From: an uncultured Hyphomicrobiaceae bacterium
GTDB lineage: Bacteria; Pseudomonadota; Alphaproteobacteria; Rhizobiales; CALHAX01
Length of the DNA stretch: 33,539 bases
Assembly (NCBI GenBank): GCA_937931785.1
Contig: CALHAX010000055.1
Location: forward strand, 1 to 33,539
Reading direction: 5' to 3'
Below the pieces are notes generated by a model. The model saw nothing but the letters and a program-made list of their open reading frames with translations, made no database searches and was not told where the DNA came from. The position numbers were made by a program, and so were the translations under genes. Shown one piece after another: positions 1-31,577 of the stretch. How positions within the stretch are numbered: the stretch's first letter is position 1; each line of letters starts with the position of its first letter.

Positions 1-219
1 TGGCCGCAATTGCCGCTGCAGAAGAAGCGGAACGCGAGCGGCAGGAAGCTGAACGCCTTCGTGTCATTGCCGAAGAAAAAGCCGAACAGGAACGCAAGCG
101 CCTGGCCGCAATTGCCGCTGCAGAAGAAGCGGAACGCGAGCGGCAGGAAGCTGAACGCCTTCGTGTCATTGCCGAAGAAAAAGCCGAACAGGAACGCAAG
201 CGCCTGGCCGCAATTGCCG
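1..219 (+). repeat. Perfect 102-bp coding tandem repeat (34 aa unit)
   Basis: The unit starting at base 1 recurs at 103 and begins again at 205, where it diverges after about 15 bases. The two full copies are identical at the nucleotide level. The length is 34 codons, so copy-number change keeps the frame. The unit encodes an Ala-rich stretch followed by alternating Glu/Arg/Lys, as in coiled-coil or stalk regions. The array continues beyond the left edge, so total copy number is unknown. Confidence 0.95.
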
Positions 220-1154
220 CCACCAACGAGGCTCGCCGCCTGCAACTGGCGCAACGCAACGCAAGACGAAAAGATTATCGCTTGGTCGCGGAGTATAATG
301 GCACACCGTTGGAACTGTGGGAAGAACGTAAAAAAGTGCGTGCAGCAAATAAGGACCTTTCAAAAATTGACGAAGCACGCTTCGCAAAACGAAAGTCTGA
401 CAGTCGCGGTCGGGTTATCCTGTCAGGCAAAGTCGCATCACCACAAATGCGGATCGCATTGCGTCGCCATGCCCGTGCGCAATTCGACGGCGATGTTGTG
501 GATCGCCTTGAGGTCATTGATGGGGCCGAAGATCCGGAATGGCAGGCGGCAGCAGTGCATGGAATTGATGAACTCTCGCGCCTGCGCAATGGCGCAGCAC
601 TTGTAACCCAGAGCGACGTTGATCTTTACGGCGACGCTGTAAGCAACGATGCCGCGCAGGCGGTTCGGGCCGCGATCGATCGCAAGACACCCTCACGCTT
701 TGAGGTTTCATCCCTCATAATAGCTCCAAAAGCTCTTGAAAAAACAGCCGTAGAAGAGGTCCTGGAAAAGGATGCCCCCGTTAACGCGGGCGAATGTGGA
801 AACCTTATGAATTCGGTCGCCACGTTTGCGCCCATCCGCTTTGCCTCCGAAAAAGCGGAGATCCGCAAATCCGATACCCCAACACTCGACAAACTCGCAG
901 TGATTGCCGAGAAATGCCCACGTACGAAAGTCAGGGTCGCAGGACATACGGATTCACGCGGACCTGAAGCTTACAATCAGAAACTCTCCGAACAACGTGC
1001 CGAAGCAGTGTTGGATTATCTCGCCAAAAAGGGCATCGCACGCAACCGCATGAGGGCGCGTGGTCTCGGCGAAAGTCAGCCGTTGGTCAGCAACGCAACG
1101 CGCGCTGATCGCACGAAGAACAGACGCATCGAATTCACAGTGACCGAACAGTAA
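1..1154 (+). CDS. OmpA-family outer-membrane/peptidoglycan-linking protein, 5'-truncated by window edge
   Basis: The frame is open from the first base, so the true start lies left of the window. The visible N-terminal part is an Ala/Glu/Arg-rich, charged helical region built of 34-residue repeats and likely to form a long coiled coil. A middle segment (about nt 410-750) looks like a BON-type fold (inference). The C-terminal 110 residues are an OmpA-like peptidoglycan-binding domain: the block GHTDSRG (about nt 943-963) is followed by an N-x-x-L-S-x-x-RA helix, which carry the Asp and Arg that bind diaminopimelate in this family, and it ends with a typical NRRIEFTV strand. The family anchors the outer membrane or an envelope complex to the cell wall. 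Stop TAA at 1152-1154 is followed directly by a second TAA. The repeat region is the odd feature. Family assignment is secure; the particular role is unknown. Confidence 0.88.
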   Translation, partial: AAIAAAEEAERERQEAERLRVIAEEKAEQERKRLAAIAAAEEAERERQEAERLRVIAEEKAEQERKRLAAIAATNEARRLQLAQRNARRKDYRLVAEYNGTPLELWEERKKVRAANKDLSKIDEARFAKRKSDSRGRVILSGKVASPQMRIALRRHARAQFDGDVVDRLEVIDGAEDPEWQAAAVHGIDELSRLRNGAALVTQSDVDLYGDAVSNDAAQAVRAAIDRKTPSRFEVSSLIIAPKALEKTAVEEVLEKDAPVNAGECGNLMNSVATFAPIRFASEKAEIRKSDTPTLDKLAVIAEKCPRTKVRVAGHTDSRGPEAYNQKLSEQRAEAVLDYLAKKGIARNRMRARGLGESQPLVSNATRADRTKNRRIEFTVTEQ

Positions 1155-1216
1155 TAAAGGGGCGCACCGTACGAAGATGCGGACGCACCTCGTCAAGAGA
1201 CGAACGGAGAACAAAC

Positions 1217-1318
1217 GTGTTGTACCTGCTGCAAGCCTTGATGCCTTATGTCGTACTGTCCGTGATACTTGGTTTCGTTGTCGGTTGGTTCGCCTGCGGA
1301 CGAGAAGACGAAAGATAG
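1217..1318 (+). CDS. Putative 33-aa single-pass membrane micro-protein
   Basis: A GTG start with CGGAGA six bases upstream opens a 33-codon frame ending TAG at 1316-1318. The product is almost all one hydrophobic helix, followed by a short charged tail (REDER). Its core, MPY-x-VL then LGF-x-VGWFAC, closely matches the first 25 residues of the protein beginning at 1382 (MPY-x-VL then LG-x-x-FVGAWFAC). This suggests a real coding sequence that arose by partial duplication, or shares a membrane-anchor motif, with that gene. It sits 62 nt after the OmpA gene and 63 nt before the larger gene on the same strand. No function is known. The resemblance is visible in the sequence; expression is inference. 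Confidence 0.5.
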   Translation: MLYLLQALMPYVVLSVILGFVVGWFACGREDER

Positions 1319-1337
1319 AAAACACCAAGTCTGGCAC

Positions 1338-1356
1338 GTGATGAAAGGTTCATCAC
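1338..1356. promoter_or_regulatory. Perfect inverted repeat upstream of the HhH-domain membrane protein
   Basis: GTGATGAA and TTCATCAC are exact reverse complements separated by AGG. The repeat lies between the micro-ORF and the Shine-Dalgarno AAGGAG of the gene at 1382. There is no T-run, so it is not an intrinsic terminator. It could be an operator for a dimeric regulator or an RNA hairpin that modulates translation of the downstream gene. Confidence 0.45.
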
Positions 1357-1381
1357 AACCGCCTGAAGGAGACTGTTTCGC

Positions 1382-3391
1382 ATGCCTTACTTCGTGCTCT
1401 ACACAGCGCTGCTCTTGCTGGGTTCTTTCTTTGTCGGCGCTTGGTTTGCGTGCGTCATGCGCAAGATATTCAACTTTGGTGCGCGTCCCGTACTGCAAAC
1501 AGCAGGGGCTGCTGCAGGTGCTGGAGCGGTCGCTACGGCAGACGTGGTCGCGCGTTCGAAACCCGACGCAGTTCCCTCAGCGGCTGTAGCGTCTGACAGG
1601 TCCGCAGAGACCACTTTGTTTGGCGATCGCAACGCCGCCGAGCAGGCCGTTCTGGACAGTGAGGCACACCGCGACGACCCAGTGTTAGCCCCCGGGGCTG
1701 CTCAAATCACTGAAACACAAACCCCAGAACCTATACCTGCTCCAGAGCCGATTGAGCCAGATGCAAACGCTCCCGTTGCAAAGGATAAAAAAGAACCTGC
1801 TGGTGATCATGCCGCATCCAGGATCGAAGAACCAACAACAGATCATGTCGGCGAAATTTCGAACATCGCAGAAACGACCGCACCGACGGATGTCGCGAGC
1901 GCTGTCGCAGCCGCAAGCGCAGCAGCAGCCGCAGCGATTGCCGCCGCCAAAGCGGGAAGCGCGGCCATCCAGGAACCTATTACGGATGCAGCACCAGTAC
2001 AAGAATTCAACGATATTCTCCCATCACCGGACGAGGATGGTTTTGAGTTCATCTCTCCACCTGTTGCAATAAAGGAATCGGCCGCAATAACACCGATCGA
2101 AACATCCAGTCGCGAAGACAATGCGGAAGTCGCGGTGGACAACGACATACAAGAACCCGAGCCTGTCCCCGCTTACGCGCCTGAGCATACTTCGCAAACG
2201 GAGTCTCAGGCAGAACACCATGCAACAGAGCACCAACAGATTGCAGATACAAACCAGCACCCCGGGCACAGCAAGAGCGACGAGCAGGTTGAAACCTCTG
2301 AGGTAGATCACACACCGCAACCTGACATGGAAACGGCTGCAATTGCCGCTTCAGCTGCAGGCGCCACCGCGCTGGCAACCCAGAACATGCAACCTGCAGA
2401 AGAAACTGCATCTATTCCAGAACCAGCCACGGGTGAAATAGACTCCCTCCCCTTCGCAGAAGCCGATCCAGACGACCTTATGCGTATCAAAGGCATCGAT
2501 CAGGAAACACAAGACACATTGAACGGATTGGGTATCCACCGTTACGAGCAGATTGCACAATTTTCATCAGAAAATGTTGCAGAACTCGATCATCAACTCG
2601 GCGCACCAGCACGCATCTCACGTGAAGGTTGGATTGAACAGGCCACAATCTTGTCGCGCGGGAACGAAACTTACTTTTCAGGTCGCCAGTACCGAAACAG
2701 AAGAACATCGTCACACGCATCTGCCACAAAGGGCGTGACCACCGCTGGAACCGATGCAGCGAGCACGATGCCAGCAGCAGCGACCGGAGGCCTTTCTGGT
2801 GCCACCATCACAGCGGCGGTTGTCGGCCGTGCGTCTTCCAACATCGCGCATGAAGAACCGTCAGGTCGCACCACTGATGCAATCTCAAGTTTTCACGCTC
2901 AAAGCTCAGGAAAAACCCAGGCAACTGAAGAAAATACACTTGCAGAACGACAGGACCGCGAACCCCGTGAGCCACGCGCAGACCGCGAACCCCGTGAACC
3001 ACGCGCAGACCGCGAGCCGCGCGCAGAGCATGAGACCGGCGCGACTGAACGTAGCGAAAGCACCCTGGGATCAGCAACACGCTCACGTCCGGGCGCAGCA
3101 CGTGTTGGCCGCAGTATACCAGGGGTCGGCAATCCGGAAAGCCGCCGCATCGGAGCCAGCGGCGGCGGACAAATGCTTCAGTCATCAGAAGCGAACGACC
3201 TCAAACGCATTCGTGGCGTTGGCGTCGTCATCGAGAAAAAACTCAACGCGATGGGCGTTCACTCCTACGCTCAGATTGCAGCGTGGACGGAACCCGATAT
3301 CGACCAGGTCAATTCCATCCTGGACTTCAGTGGTCGGATAGAACGTGAAAACTGGATCGAACAGGCAAAGGTTCTCGTTAAAAAGACATAA
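1382..3391 (+). CDS. Membrane-anchored Ala/Pro/Glu-rich protein with two helix-hairpin-helix-like domains
   Basis: 669 residues. Start ATG has a good AAGGAG seven bases upstream. Residues 3-24 form one membrane helix ending WFAC. A long low-complexity region rich in Ala, Pro, Glu and Gln follows, including an almost pure Ala run (about 171-195). An HhH-like domain lies at 363-424 and a second at 604-667, joined by a disordered stretch with REP/RAD repeats (525-548). Both domains read L-x-x-I-x-G-[IV] near the start, a Leu-Gly/Met-Gly turn, a QIA helix, a Gly/Ala-x-x-Arg-Ile loop and end WIEQA-x-x-L. The same domain ends L21 in this window and, from memory, NuoE of Rhizobiales. The topology implies a tethered cytoplasmic tail whose tip domain could bind a protein or nucleic acid. 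No catalytic motif is seen. Function unknown. Confidence 0.85.
   Translation: MPYFVLYTALLLLGSFFVGAWFACVMRKIFNFGARPVLQTAGAAAGAGAVATADVVARSKPDAVPSAAVASDRSAETTLFGDRNAAEQAVLDSEAHRDDPVLAPGAAQITETQTPEPIPAPEPIEPDANAPVAKDKKEPAGDHAASRIEEPTTDHVGEISNIAETTAPTDVASAVAAASAAAAAAIAAAKAGSAAIQEPITDAAPVQEFNDILPSPDEDGFEFISPPVAIKESAAITPIETSSREDNAEVAVDNDIQEPEPVPAYAPEHTSQTESQAEHHATEHQQIADTNQHPGHSKSDEQVETSEVDHTPQPDMETAAIAASAAGATALATQNMQPAEETASIPEPATGEIDSLPFAEADPDDLMRIKGIDQETQDTLNGLGIHRYEQIAQFSSENVAELDHQLGAPARISREGWIEQATILSRGNETYFSGRQYRNRRTSSHASATKGVTTAGTDAASTMPAAATGGLSGATITAAVVGRASSNIAHEEPSGRTTDAISSFHAQSSGKTQATEENTLAERQDREPREPRADREPREPRADREPRAEHETGATERSESTLGSATRSRPGAARVGRSIPGVGNPESRRIGASGGGQMLQSSEANDLKRIRGVGVVIEKKLNAMGVHSYAQIAAWTEPDIDQVNSILDFSGRIERENWIEQAKVLVKKT
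2468..2653 (+). other. HhH-like domain, copy A (internal, degenerate)
   Basis: Encodes residues 363-424 of the anchored protein. It keeps the L-x-x-IKG-I entry, the LNGLGI turn, the YEQIA helix and the closing REGWIEQA, but the middle loop has GAPARIS where the other two copies have F-x-GRI. It is the most diverged of the three copies in the window. Confidence 0.8.
2954..3025 (+). repeat. 27-bp coding tandem repeat (DREPREPRA unit)
   Basis: Two nearly identical 27-bp units at 2954-2980 and 2981-3007 differ at one visible position (gag/gaa). A partial third follows to about 3025. The unit encodes nine residues that alternate acidic and basic with Pro. It forms a flexible charged linker ahead of the last domain. 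Confidence 0.9.
3191..3388 (+). other. HhH-like domain, copy B (C-terminal)
   Basis: Encodes residues 604-669 minus the last codons. It begins NDLKRIRGVG, has the LNAMGV turn, the YAQIAAW helix, the DFSGRIERENW loop and ends WIEQAKVL. It is close to the L21 extension at 31380-31565 over the whole length without gaps. Confidence 0.85.
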
Positions 3392-3521: not shown

Positions 3522-4424
3522 CTAGTCTGTGTCTCGCGCCAGAAACGCAACGATCGCCTCGATCGTTGGCGCATCTCTCAACAAGGGCGCATGTCCCTGT
3601 CCCTTTACATCAACCCGAACAGTGCCGGGATGTAACCGGCACATCTTGTCGAGCGTTGCAACGCTAAGAATGTCCGAGTTTTCACCCCGGATAACCATCA
3701 AAGGAAAGCGGCGCAACGCATTGAACTGGGGCCAGAGTTCAGGTGGTGCACTATCGAGGTCCACATTCGTCACAGCACGCGCAATCGCCTTGTCGTACCC
3801 TGAGACCGGTTGACCATTCACATCATTGAACCATTGTTCCGCAACGACCCGCCATTCCGACTCATCGATGTCGGGAAAGTCCCGTTGCCCTATATCCTTG
3901 ACGATCCGCGTGGCATCATTCCAATCAACCGGATCCGGAATGCGTCCGGCATATCCTGTAATCCGCGCCAGACCATCCGCCTCTATCACGGGCCCTATGT
4001 CATTCAGGACAACGGACATCAAAGCGGTTGGTCGCATAGCACCAAGAATCATCGCGATCAGCCCGCCGCGGGACGTCCCGACAACATGGGCTTTGTGAAC
4101 CATTTCACGCGCCATCAAATCCGTCAGGTCTAGCGCCTCCATAAACGGAGAATAATTTTTCCAGTCCGTGTCGTGATCGGATTGTCCGCGGCCGCGGTAG
4201 TCGACCGCGAGGACGCGATGCCCAGCGGCACACAACGCGTCGCAGAGCATCTCGAAATCACGAGCATTGCGGGTCAGCCCCGGCAAGCAGACAACCGGAT
4301 AGTTAGTGACCACCTCAGGGTCGTAAGAGCGCGCATGAAGCCGCAAGCCATCGCGGGACGTGAAGAAGACATCACGCCATAAAGACGCGTCCTGCAGATC
4401 AGTCTTAACGTTCACGGCCTGCAT
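3522..4424 (-). CDS. Alpha/beta-fold hydrolase
   Basis: 300 residues from ATG 4424, chosen because GAGG lies five bases upstream. An in-frame ATG at 4505 adds 27 unconvincing residues and has no clear ribosome site. The chain shows a hydrolase core: LPGLTRNARDF (oxyanion loop region), the DYRGRGQS turn, the nucleophile elbow GTSRGG with Ser118, a GENSDIL segment likely carrying the acid, and GQGHAPLL with the catalytic His. The arrangement resembles epoxide-hydrolase/esterase-like enzymes with a cap domain. The substrate cannot be named. It follows the lytic transglycosylase on the same strand after about 105 nt, so the two may be co-transcribed. Confidence 0.85.
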   Translation of the reverse strand: MQAVNVKTDLQDASLWRDVFFTSRDGLRLHARSYDPEVVTNYPVVCLPGLTRNARDFEMLCDALCAAGHRVLAVDYRGRGQSDHDTDWKNYSPFMEALDLTDLMAREMVHKAHVVGTSRGGLIAMILGAMRPTALMSVVLNDIGPVIEADGLARITGYAGRIPDPVDWNDATRIVKDIGQRDFPDIDESEWRVVAEQWFNDVNGQPVSGYDKAIARAVTNVDLDSAPPELWPQFNALRRFPLMVIRGENSDILSVATLDKMCRLHPGTVRVDVKGQGHAPLLRDAPTIEAIVAFLARDTD

Positions 4425-4529
4425 ATGCCTCGGTGCCTCATCCTCGTGTTGTAGAGACGCGCTATATCGCACTGACCAACAGATCGCCAGCATGCAGCGC
4501 CACAACTGTCAGCGAAACCGGGCCAATGC

Positions 4530-7115
4530 TCAGAAGGTGCCGCGCTGGATATCCTTGGTGATCTGCAGCGCGGTATCCGGCTTGCCGAGGCGGGCACGAT
4601 AGACTTGAAGGTTTGCCATGACCTTCTTCACATACTCGCGTGTTTCCTCAAGATGGATCAATTCGATCCAGTCAATCGGATCGATACTTCGATCACGTGG
4701 ATCACCACTCTTCCCAATCCAGTATCGCGCACGACCAGGCCCGGCATTATATCCGGCATAGGCGAGAATATACGAACCACCGAATTCCTGGAGGCGACCA
4801 GTAACGTAAGCACTGGCGAGTGTCGCATTATAGGCCGGGTCGCTGGACAGACGACGGCTGAGTGCACGCCGCGACCCACATCGCAAACCATGCTCACGGC
4901 ATACGCCATGCGCCGTGGCGGGCATCACCTGCAACACACCACGTGCACCAACAATGCTCTTGATCAGCGTATTGAACTCACTCTCCTGCCGCGCAAGTCC
5001 ATACAGCATGGCAGGCTCCGGCGGATCGACAAGCGGTTTGAACAAGGGAAACGCGTGGGTTGGATAAGCGTATTCGTATAACGGTATGCCATGGAACAAG
5101 GCGGATTTGCCCAGGCGAACGGACATCTGCGTATCACCGGTCGATTTCGCAAATTCGGCGGCGAGATGGAAGATGTGTGCCTCTTGTTTTGATTTCTGAA
5201 TCGCCCGCAGGAACCGCCGCACAATTGCACCGTTGCCAGATAGCCGCGCAAACCGAAGTGCCTGCAATATATCACTGTTCTGAGCGTCCTTGATCCGCTC
5301 CCGCGTCAGTTCAGGAGGTTTCGGAAGCGACAGCTTAACAAGGTCGGGGCTCAACTTCTGCTGGGCCAATTGTCCATAAAAAGTTTGGGGCTCTTTCGCA
5401 GCCTGAGTATAGCTGCGGGTTGCACCGCCCACATCACCCATTACGTCGTAAACCCGCCCGAGCCAGTAGTGCGATTGCGCGCGCGTGCGTGGCCCATCTG
5501 CAGATGCCGTGAAAGCCTTGAAATGCTCCAGCGCCGGTTCCAGTTCGTTGAGAAATCGAAACGCAATCCATCCGGACATGAAAAGCGACTGATTACGCGC
5601 ATTTACGCTCAAGTCGCCGCCGGGTTTTACCGCAAGCTGATATGCCGTGCGGTAAGATTTTTTATACAACGCATTGAAGATATTGACGCGACGCTCTTCC
5701 CACCACCCATCGGGATTGACGAGTTGATCTGTCTCTGCGGGCGTCTGCAGCAACCTGTTCCATGCTTCACCATCACGGCCTTGCCGTCGCAGCAACTGCG
5801 TTCGATGGAACTCATATGGCCAGTCTACGATCGTAGCGGGAACCTTCTTGTCCGCAGAAGAAGCAATCGAAGATGTCGAGGCCGCTACAGTGGGAGCAAT
5901 CTCTCCACTATTTTTTTCCTCTTCACTCGAAGATTCAGAGCTCTTTATTACTTCAGCAAGTTTCGGTTTGCGAACCGGTAATGCGATGTTCTGCGCCGCC
6001 GCTTGCGCCGACTCTTTCTTCTCAATTGCAGCGATCGCTCGAACCGCCCCATTTAACCGTCGCTTGCTGCGGCTTCGATATGAGCGCCACACACGCAGCC
6101 GTGCGTTGGCCTTGGCGGCTGCATCTGGCCCAAGCTGCGCAATCATCCGCTTGATCGTTGCAAGACGACCGGATCGCCCGTAACGATCGTCATCCAGCAT
6201 ATACTGATCAAGCCGCCATTTGATGTCGTCTTCCGTCAAGATCGTTTTGAAACGCGCCAGAAACTGCTGCTCCACAGACACACCGAAGTTCCCCTCGCGC
6301 CATGCCTCGCGGACCCGCTTCTCCGCAGCGTGTGCCTTGCCTTCAGACCGTTCCAGTGCAGCCAGGGCAGCATGCCCCGCAGATGTTTCGGGTACACTGT
6401 CCTTGAAGAACCTGCGAACCTCCCCTGCACGCGCATTCTGGAAGAAAAGTGCTTCTTCTGCCCGGCGTCGCAGAAGATCATTTTCTGGCCATGACGGATT
6501 TGCCACCCGAAACGCTTCAATCGTTTGCGCATCGATACCAGAACCACCTCGGCGGTAGGCGAACCATTCGACAAGCTTGCGCGCCCCCGGATTCGATACA
6601 GTTCTGGCCTGCGCAAGTGCCTCAGACATCCGTCGTCCACCAACGTTCACCAAGGCACGCCGCACAACCTGAACATCCTGCGTATCATTACCAACCGACA
6701 GCAGCGGCGCGACCGCTTTTTCAGCAACCGTCTTTATGCGTTCAGGCGGGCCAAAAACGGGGGTTACAACCACCTTCGGCAAAGACGATCCGCGTAATGC
6801 AACCGGATCAGGAGGCGCAAATCTTACCTTTCGTGCGCGATCGCTGGTCAGCGTGGTAACGGGAGCTATGGGGTCTTCACCCTGCGCTGTGCGGTCGCTG
6901 TGATGTCCCGCCTGAGGCACGGCACTGGCTGCAAGCATGCCGGCAATCAAGATCATGAAAACGCTCGAACCACCCCAGATCAACCAGTCTCCAACGGAAG
7001 CCCGTGCAGGATTAGGCTTCGCCAATGCGGACACCTCGGCATCTTCGTCATGGGGCTGATCAAGGGGTTGTGTCACGTCAAGGTCCGTTTTACCGGGCCG
7101 CATGAGCGCGACCAC
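4530..7115 (-). CDS. Slt-type lytic murein transglycosylase
   Basis: 861 residues from GTG 7115, which has TAAGG seven bases upstream; ATG 7103 is an alternative. A single membrane helix at about 44-66 makes it an inner-membrane-anchored periplasmic enzyme. The middle is a long helical superhelix region with TPR-like pieces (WLGRVYDVMGD near 560). The C-terminal SLT domain (about 700-845) has the catalytic Glu711 in ARQESEFN, then GVLQVMPATA and the AGYNAGPGRA block. The family cleaves the MurNAc-GlcNAc bond and forms 1,6-anhydroMurNAc ends, which serves wall turnover or insertion of envelope machines. A low-complexity Ser/Glu patch near residues 395-425 is unusual but looks like a linker. 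It is divergent from dapA across 186 bp. Confidence 0.92.
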   Translation of the reverse strand: MVALMRPGKTDLDVTQPLDQPHDEDAEVSALAKPNPARASVGDWLIWGGSSVFMILIAGMLAASAVPQAGHHSDRTAQGEDPIAPVTTLTSDRARKVRFAPPDPVALRGSSLPKVVVTPVFGPPERIKTVAEKAVAPLLSVGNDTQDVQVVRRALVNVGGRRMSEALAQARTVSNPGARKLVEWFAYRRGGSGIDAQTIEAFRVANPSWPENDLLRRRAEEALFFQNARAGEVRRFFKDSVPETSAGHAALAALERSEGKAHAAEKRVREAWREGNFGVSVEQQFLARFKTILTEDDIKWRLDQYMLDDDRYGRSGRLATIKRMIAQLGPDAAAKANARLRVWRSYRSRSKRRLNGAVRAIAAIEKKESAQAAAQNIALPVRKPKLAEVIKSSESSSEEEKNSGEIAPTVAASTSSIASSADKKVPATIVDWPYEFHRTQLLRRQGRDGEAWNRLLQTPAETDQLVNPDGWWEERRVNIFNALYKKSYRTAYQLAVKPGGDLSVNARNQSLFMSGWIAFRFLNELEPALEHFKAFTASADGPRTRAQSHYWLGRVYDVMGDVGGATRSYTQAAKEPQTFYGQLAQQKLSPDLVKLSLPKPPELTRERIKDAQNSDILQALRFARLSGNGAIVRRFLRAIQKSKQEAHIFHLAAEFAKSTGDTQMSVRLGKSALFHGIPLYEYAYPTHAFPLFKPLVDPPEPAMLYGLARQESEFNTLIKSIVGARGVLQVMPATAHGVCREHGLRCGSRRALSRRLSSDPAYNATLASAYVTGRLQEFGGSYILAYAGYNAGPGRARYWIGKSGDPRDRSIDPIDWIELIHLEETREYVKKVMANLQVYRARLGKPDTALQITKDIQRGTF

Positions 7116-30962: not shown

Positions 30963-31577
30963 ATGTACGCTGTCATCAAGACAGGCGGCAAGCAGTACCG
31001 GGTTGCTGCCGACGACGTCCTCAAGATTGAAAAAGTTACCGGCGAAGTGGGCGAAACCATTTCGTTCGCCGACGTTCTCATGGTCGGCGGCGACACGCCA
31101 ACGATTGGAACACCGACCATTGACGGCGCTACGGTTGCTGCCGAAGTGGTAGATCAGGGCCGCGCCCGCAAGATCATCGTTTTCAAGAAGAAGCGCCGCC
31201 AGAACTATCGCCGCAAGAAGGGGCATCGTCAGGAACAAACGACGATCCGCATTACTGACATTATCATGGGCGGCAAGAAACTCGCGACTGGCGCACCTGC
31301 GAGCGAAAAGCCCGCCAAGGCTCCAGCAACAGCAGGCAGCGACCTTCCGCAGCTCTTTACCGCGCCAGCAGGCGATGGTGATGATCTGACAAAAATCAAC
31401 GGCGTCGGTCCGGTTCTCGTCGAGAAGCTCAACAAGATGGGCATCACAACATTCGCACAAGTCGCGGCATTCACGCCGGAAGATGTCGCGAACGTGGACG
31501 ATGCACTGAGCTTCAAGGGCCGCATTGATCGCGACAACTGGATCGAACAGGCCAAGACACTGGCCGAGGAAGCCTGA
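30963..31577 (+). CDS. rplU: Ribosomal protein L21 with C-terminal HhH-like extension
   Basis: 204 residues; ordinary L21 is about 103. Residues 1-103 are standard L21 ([14 protein letters not shown] start, [20 protein letters not shown] end) that binds 23S rRNA near L20. A Lys/Ala/Pro linker follows (104-139), then an HhH-like domain (140-201) with [32 protein letters not shown] and WIEQAKTL. Long L21 proteins are known in Rhizobiales. The same domain ends the anchored protein at 1382-3391. GAAGGA lies before the ATG. It is co-transcribed with rpmA, 76 nt downstream. Confidence 0.97.
31380..31565 (+). other. HhH-like domain, copy C (L21 extension)
   Basis: Residues 140-201 of RplU. It aligns without gaps to copy B in the anchored protein and shares its GVG, LN-x-MG, QxAA, F-x-GRI-x-R-x-NWIEQAK framework. 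Such a domain on a ribosomal protein would be exposed at the particle surface; its ligand is unknown. Confidence 0.85.

Follow-up and report, generated by a model that had tools for sequence, protein, structure and literature searches.

The micro-ORF of the window (the whole stretch of DNA analysed, 33,539 nucleotides long) lies between a BON/OmpA-type gene and the gene of a membrane-anchored helix-hairpin-helix (HHH) protein. As judged from sequence comparison, it is a real, functional and conserved gene. Its product is probably the detached first helix of the neighbour's membrane domain, which would pack with the anchor of the HHH protein, and not a leftover copy of that anchor. The features concerned are collected in Table 1.

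Table 1. Positions of the micro-ORF and of its neighbouring features in the window.
Feature	Position	Strand	Description
BON/OmpA-type gene, 3' part	1..1154	+	Frame open from contig start; N-terminus missing here
OmpA domain of the upstream gene	about 837-1124	+	Pfam OmpA, E 1.6e-22
GGAG, likely ribosome-binding site of the micro-ORF	1206..1209	+	From sequence; seven bases before GTG
Micro-ORF	1217..1318	+	33-aa single-helix membrane protein; GTG start, TAG stop
GGAG before the HHH gene	1368..1371	+	From sequence
HHH protein of 669 aa with membrane anchor and extended middle region	1382..3391	+	Two HHH-type domains
N-terminal anchor helix of the HHH protein	1382..1456	+	Pattern related to the micro-ORF at family level
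HHH-type domains of the 669-aa protein	about 2468-2653 and 3188-3379	+	Domain matches

The micro-gene, its neighbours and its conservation

The initial annotation had described a 33-codon frame with a plausible ribosome site that encodes a single membrane helix. Both parts of this description were confirmed. The start, the stop and the GGAG are in place, and the translation of 33 residues contains one hydrophobic stretch. The GTG start corresponds to Met1 of the family alignment, and a gap of 63 nt separates the micro-ORF from the ATG of the HHH gene. No sigma-70 promoter was found in a scan of window positions 1000-1500. Chance coding, which had been called unlikely, is excluded by the conservation of the micro family.

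The upstream gene is truncated in the window, and its BON match (E 0.0018) is under the Pfam cut-off. In its full-length relative L128, BON, BON_like and OmpA are all over the cut-off, and a hydrophobic stretch is recognised by eye at the N-terminus. A perfect 102-bp tandem repeat of 2.2 copies (window 1-220) lies inside the OmpA gene and codes a charged alanine-rich stretch. The repeat stands at the very start of the contig, and the assembly break may have been caused by it. The HHH protein of the window shows one hydrophobic stretch at its N-terminus, also by eye. Its gene holds a 27-bp tandem repeat of 2.3 copies (window 2954-3015) coding an Arg-Glu-Pro-rich stretch. Downstream of the HHH gene, genes of an alpha/beta hydrolase and an SLT transglycosylase are located on the (-) strand (window 3522-7115). 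At its C-terminus, ribosomal protein L21 (window 30963-31577) is extended by an HHH region of the type found in the HHH protein.

When the single peptide was searched against 61 genomes from the order to which the window belongs, 36 of them had a match at E<=1. Thirty loci were fetched from this search and 27 were judged to be related, most of them being short ORFs in the same place. The matches L026, L028 and L031 have different gene surroundings and were discarded as chance hits. The micro profile A1 was built from 20 of the 27 related loci, with the exclusion of seven with unclear starts or N-terminal extensions. At E<=1e-5, this profile had matches in 149 of the 397 genomes searched in the order, fused copies included, and in 66 of 141 genera; in two of the listed places (G295 and G361) a stop lies inside the match. 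The other 248 of the 397 genomes gave no match at this threshold. The micro-protein is therefore not a general requirement of the order. In a sample of 289 genomes drawn from the class, five matched: that of the window itself, one from the order with a fused locus, and three belonging to a single genus outside the order. In a search of the phylum at E<=0.1, the matches outside the order were mostly partial ones in long frames.

The gene order was compared in 61 loci, i.e. the window and 60 loci hand-picked for a micro match. An OmpA frame is present within 900 nt upstream in 52 of them and an HHH gene within 4 kb downstream in 53. Among the eight loci without a detected HHH gene, L126 and L153 end at or near a contig edge, L157 and L175 have a short anchor-only ORF instead, and in L139, L163 and L173 the following frame contains a helix resembling the anchor; L172 is the last of them. 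The start codon is ATG in 57 loci and GTG in four, including the window. The micro-protein is about 28-46 aa long, and its distance to the HHH gene ranges from a 4-nt overlap to 383 nt. The hydrolase was found in 34 and the transglycosylase in 30 of the 61 loci, counting the window, and in every case the gene is oriented opposite to the micro-ORF. Eighty named loci were also reached via the neighbouring transglycosylase, and 33 of these have a micro match of >20 bits (21 with OmpA, 22 with HHH). The cultured Taklimakanibacter lacteus SYSU D60012 (L232), for example, has all three genes in the split form. The remaining 47 have an OmpA frame in no case and an HHH frame in one. They look like another site and are thus uninformative on the absence of the micro-ORF. 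The check that had been proposed for the micro-ORF, conservation of the gene and its frame in relatives, turned out in its favour, as the intact frame is found across many families of the order.

An SD-like 4-mer precedes 71 of 91 micro-ORFs, whereas shuffling gives 37.9 of 91, and random ATGs have one in 360 of 1820 cases. Some named loci are the same record as an unnamed one (for example L198 = L128, L224 = L175), and this set of 91 and the set of 82 micros used below may therefore include duplicates or near-copies. The pooled pN was 0.12 and the pooled pS 0.57 (pN/pS 0.21) over 108 non-independent pairs of micro-ORFs, and several close pairs have a pN of 0 at a pS of 0.3-0.6. Nine of ten pairs differ more in the spacer between the micro-ORF and the HHH gene than in the micro gene itself, three of them by a margin of <0.05; the pair L146/L207 shows the reverse. 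The micro family is under purifying selection.

Likeness of the micro helix and the anchor helix

The micro-ORF had initially been read as a near-repeat of the first residues of the HHH protein. A likeness does exist, and it is a specific, ungapped one at the family level; the register noted at first needs five gap positions in the window pair. The pattern common to 61 micros and 53 anchors runs from Met1 and consists of L4, A15, F/Y16, G19 and G/A23. Position 24 is W in the micros and C in the anchors, and Y3 is found in 53 of 61 micros and in a minority of the anchors (13/53). HHalign of the micro family versus the anchor family gave 93% in local mode (E 2.9e-7, one comparison), aligned from Met1 to Met1 with no gaps, and 61% in global mode.

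The register was examined over 13 offsets. Offset 0 was the best over the 42 of the 53 pairs in which both sequences have G19, a selection biased towards this offset; the result was reached by 0/10000 full and 3/10000 core column shuffles. It was also the best over all 53 pairs with no filter, reached by 0/2000 shuffles and likewise by 0/2000 when column 19 was left out. With the micro profile, 36 of 51 anchors score higher than the 95th percentile of a control set, which consists of 201 other helix starts at N-termini in these loci; this control, with several starts per ORF, still contains a few unrecognised anchors (L163, L173) and is therefore conservative. The micro and anchor sequences are related, so these statistics of likeness are not independent tests.

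A raised identity between a micro and the anchor of its own genome was not seen. Same-genome pairs share 5.36 of 26 positions versus 5.26 in the others (53 pairs; value reached by 1656/5000 permutations), and the 42-pair set gave 6.10 versus 6.10. Therefore, there is no sign of recent copying, nor of pairwise co-adjustment. Tests for recent duplication and for concerted evolution gave no sign of either, the same-genome pairs being no more alike than the cross-genome pairs. A remnant of duplication in this genome, one of the two readings suggested by the initial annotation, is not supported, given the purifying selection, the presence in many families and the own-pair identity that is not raised. 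A very old duplication of an anchor is a possible origin of the micro-gene.

In the family register (Met1 to Met1, ungapped), the window micro and its anchor have 3 identities in 26 positions, Met1 excluded. A gapped local alignment of the same pair contains 13 identities in 19 aligned residues, and its score was reached by 1/2000 shuffled anchors. BLASTP of the window micro versus the anchor gave nothing at E<=100. The correspondences of MPY to MPY and of GWFAC to AWFAC in the window look like a lineage-specific coincidence over a real family-level likeness.

Natural fusions, reduced loci and the choice of partner

Twenty further regions were fetched where the micro profile matched long frames. 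In 14 loci (family codes f42, f19 and f52; three other families), a single ORF encodes a micro-like helix and then an anchor-like helix. The fused ORF begins 10-46 nt after OmpA in all of the 14. HHH was detected in 11 of the fused ORFs and not in L264, L268 and the contig-end L274. A simple hydropathy scan called three helices in ten fusions and two in L266, L267, L268 and L275. The fused proteins were divided into three pieces and each helix was scored separately. With the micro profile, helix 1 obtained 20.8-49.4 bits and was the top helix in 14/14, while helix 2 reached at most 13.1 and helix 3 at most 8.8 bits; the fused loci were chosen for this match, and only the likeness of helix 3 is an unselected observation. 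Helix 3 obtained 10.1-26.9 bits with the anchor profile and was the top helix there in 14/14, with near-ties to helix 1 in L266 and L267. Since helix 2 lies between them, helices 1 and 3 of the fusions would point the same way. A quick OmpA tree contains four changes between the fused and split labels; its strong branches are compatible with a single origin of the fusion, and long branches meet in it.

Among the other regions, L273 and L280 are split loci. In the membrane proteins encoded by L270 and L271, the helix is followed by a charged stretch; no OmpA was found there, and one of them has an HHH match. L279 has OmpA and a micro helix with a long tail. Outside the order, L272 (G506:C2) has OmpA and then a 172-aa membrane-HHH protein with no separate micro-ORF, and the anchor of this protein resembles the micro helix. 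In L283-L285, from one genus outside the order, a micro-like helix after the OmpA gene (~1500) continues into a coiled-coil-like tail. The tail of L283 gave a weak crescentin-rod match under the cut-off.

Reduced loci were also found. Nine of them (L157, L175, L215-L218, L222, L223 and L239) have a micro and an anchor-only ORF of 44-62 aa, with no HHH detected. In L175, L215 and L216, a hydrophobic stretch is recognised by eye at the N-terminus of the upstream gene product, in which no OmpA domain was detected.

The fusions imply, at the level of sequence, that the micro and anchor helices work together. A partner that pairs with the anchor helix was the other suggestion of the initial annotation. 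It gains indirect support in two ways, as helices of both types share one ORF in the 14 fused loci and as the nine reduced loci keep the micro with an anchor-only ORF. Alternatively, the micro-protein could be real and have the BON/OmpA helix or another membrane complex as its main partner, with the likeness to the anchor being a convergence on a packing pattern. The genus of L283-L285 would fit this explanation, since the micro helix follows BON/OmpA there and heads another protein with no separate HHH anchor seen. The best non-anchor control helix (10.5 bits, L156, 741-aa frame) is the start of the OmpA frame in that locus, and weak Pfam LapA_dom matches of 4/20 members at E<=0.01 indicate that such helices are common. 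However, the micro helix joins the anchor and not OmpA in the 14 fused proteins, and the nine reduced loci keep the micro and the anchor without a detected HHH, several of them also without a detected OmpA. We therefore consider the alternative unlikely.

It is very improbable that the micro-ORF acts as a leader peptide or a translational-coupling ORF, where translation and not the product controls the HHH gene. A small ORF with its own ribosome site directly before the HHH gene would suit such a role, but its amino acids are kept against silent change, its distance to the HHH gene varies widely, and its peptide is the first helix of a protein in the fusions. A functionless decaying fragment of a duplicated anchor, with which the family likeness would be compatible if the duplication were old, can hardly be upheld against the purifying selection, the intact frame and ribosome site across many families and the own-pair identity that is not raised, by which this reading was already contradicted.

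Related systems and a proposed envelope complex

The micro profile had no match among PDB chains at E<=1, and 0 of 20 micro members matched NCBIfam at E<=0.01. Four Pfam models were matched by micro members at E<=0.01, the best at 0.00032. The window peptide itself passes no Pfam cut-off, with 12.6 bits versus 28 for LapA_dom (PF06305) and 18.6 and 19.6 bits versus 27 for NADH_oxidored (MNLL, PF08040). No account of the micro-protein was recognised in the open-licence literature searched.

CydX, KdpF and AcrZ are small bitopic accessory subunits of <50 aa with one helix, which are encoded beside or work with a larger membrane partner. The micro-protein shares with this class that it is short, single-helix, conserved and co-encoded with its probable partner. 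It differs from them in that the partner is no known enzyme or transporter, and the natural fusion and the likeness to the partner helix are special here.

The order of a BON/OmpA protein, a small membrane protein and a larger anchored protein resembles that of arfABC (Rv0899-Rv0900-Rv0901) of Mycobacterium tuberculosis, in which we take ArfB and ArfC to have the corresponding make-up. The likeness lies in the first gene, which is a BON/OmpA gene of the Rv0899/ArfA type. In contrast to arfABC, the third gene of the window ends in HHH domains, and the phylum is different. The best PDB match of the window OmpA part was Rv0899 (E 2.8e-21). Ranks 1 to 4 were 2lca, 2kgw, 2l26 and 2lbt, and 2kgw, titled Outer membrane protein A, would also be Rv0899. 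The upstream gene product thus has the features of Rv0899-type proteins, which combine BON and OmpA in the inner membrane, with BON over the cut-off only in L128. Passages of three reports tie Rv0899 to acid tolerance or ammonia secretion (PMC6151718, PMC3816664, PMC4885829), and one of them ties Rv0901 to these tasks as well (PMC4885829).

The HHH profile, made from the window domain and 11 related domains, matches chain O of 8yy9 with an E of 4.8e-29. This chain is protein-O of the RC-LH1 complex of Dinoroseobacter shibae; its membrane part, made of two helices, packs inside the complex, and its role is described as unknown (PMC12079452). Protein-O and the window HHH protein are alike in having an N-terminal membrane part, a flexible linker and a C-terminal HHH-type domain. 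The two-helix membrane part of protein-O is closed by a disulfide, whereas the window has one anchor helix and a separate one-helix protein beside BON/OmpA; the window protein thus has the C-terminal HHH-type domain and lacks a two-helix N-terminal membrane part. The HHH profile also matches a chain named complex I subunit (PDB 9wqv chain a). With this chain and 8yy9 chain O as examples, the HHH family may often ride on membrane complexes. The predicted model of the C-terminal HHH domain has a pLDDT of 81.9, and Foldseek listed RadA, DNA polymerase and NusA chains for it, all at E above 0.9, with a best E of about 1 and none significant.

From these data we infer that the micro-protein belongs to an envelope complex as a bitopic subunit. 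In 69 of 71 anchors and in 51 of 82 micros (7 opposite, 24 ties), the helix is followed by more basic residues than precede it, the charge bias of the micros being weaker. By the positive-inside rule, this excess would orient both helices N-out/C-in, with the HHH domain on the cytoplasmic side. The micro-protein would accordingly be inserted in the inner membrane in this orientation and would pack laterally against the HHH anchor helix, both running in the same direction; this parallel arrangement depends on the presence of three helices in each fusion, and the hydropathy scan called all three in only 10/14. The packing face would be a small-xxx-small-xxx-small one at positions 15, 19 and 23. 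All three positions are occupied by small residues in 64 of the 82 micros and in 54 of the 71 anchors. Such a face is suited to close helix packing, but small residues with this spacing are common in membrane helices.

From what is known of its family, the OmpA domain should bind peptidoglycan in the periplasm. The micro, the anchor and the inner-membrane helix of the BON/OmpA protein would together make up a complex that extends from the peptidoglycan, contacted by the OmpA domain, into the cytoplasm, where the HHH domain would lie. As a more tentative and rather doubtful proposal, a detached helix 1 of a three-helix domain, about 30 aa long, could dock in trans and thereby tie the cytoplasmic HHH domain, whose fold is a nucleic-acid-binding one, to peptidoglycan via the ArfA-type BON/OmpA protein. 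If this is true, the split form of some lineages and the fused form of others could be swapped experimentally.

The present analysis adds a small-protein family, unnamed in the NCBIfam and Pfam searched here, to an envelope gene cluster that is common in one order. The natural split and fused forms make the partner and the orientation of the micro-protein directly testable. The cluster also connects the BON/OmpA proteins of the ArfA type, whose task is disputed, with the membrane-HHH proteins, one of which was recently found in a photosynthetic complex.
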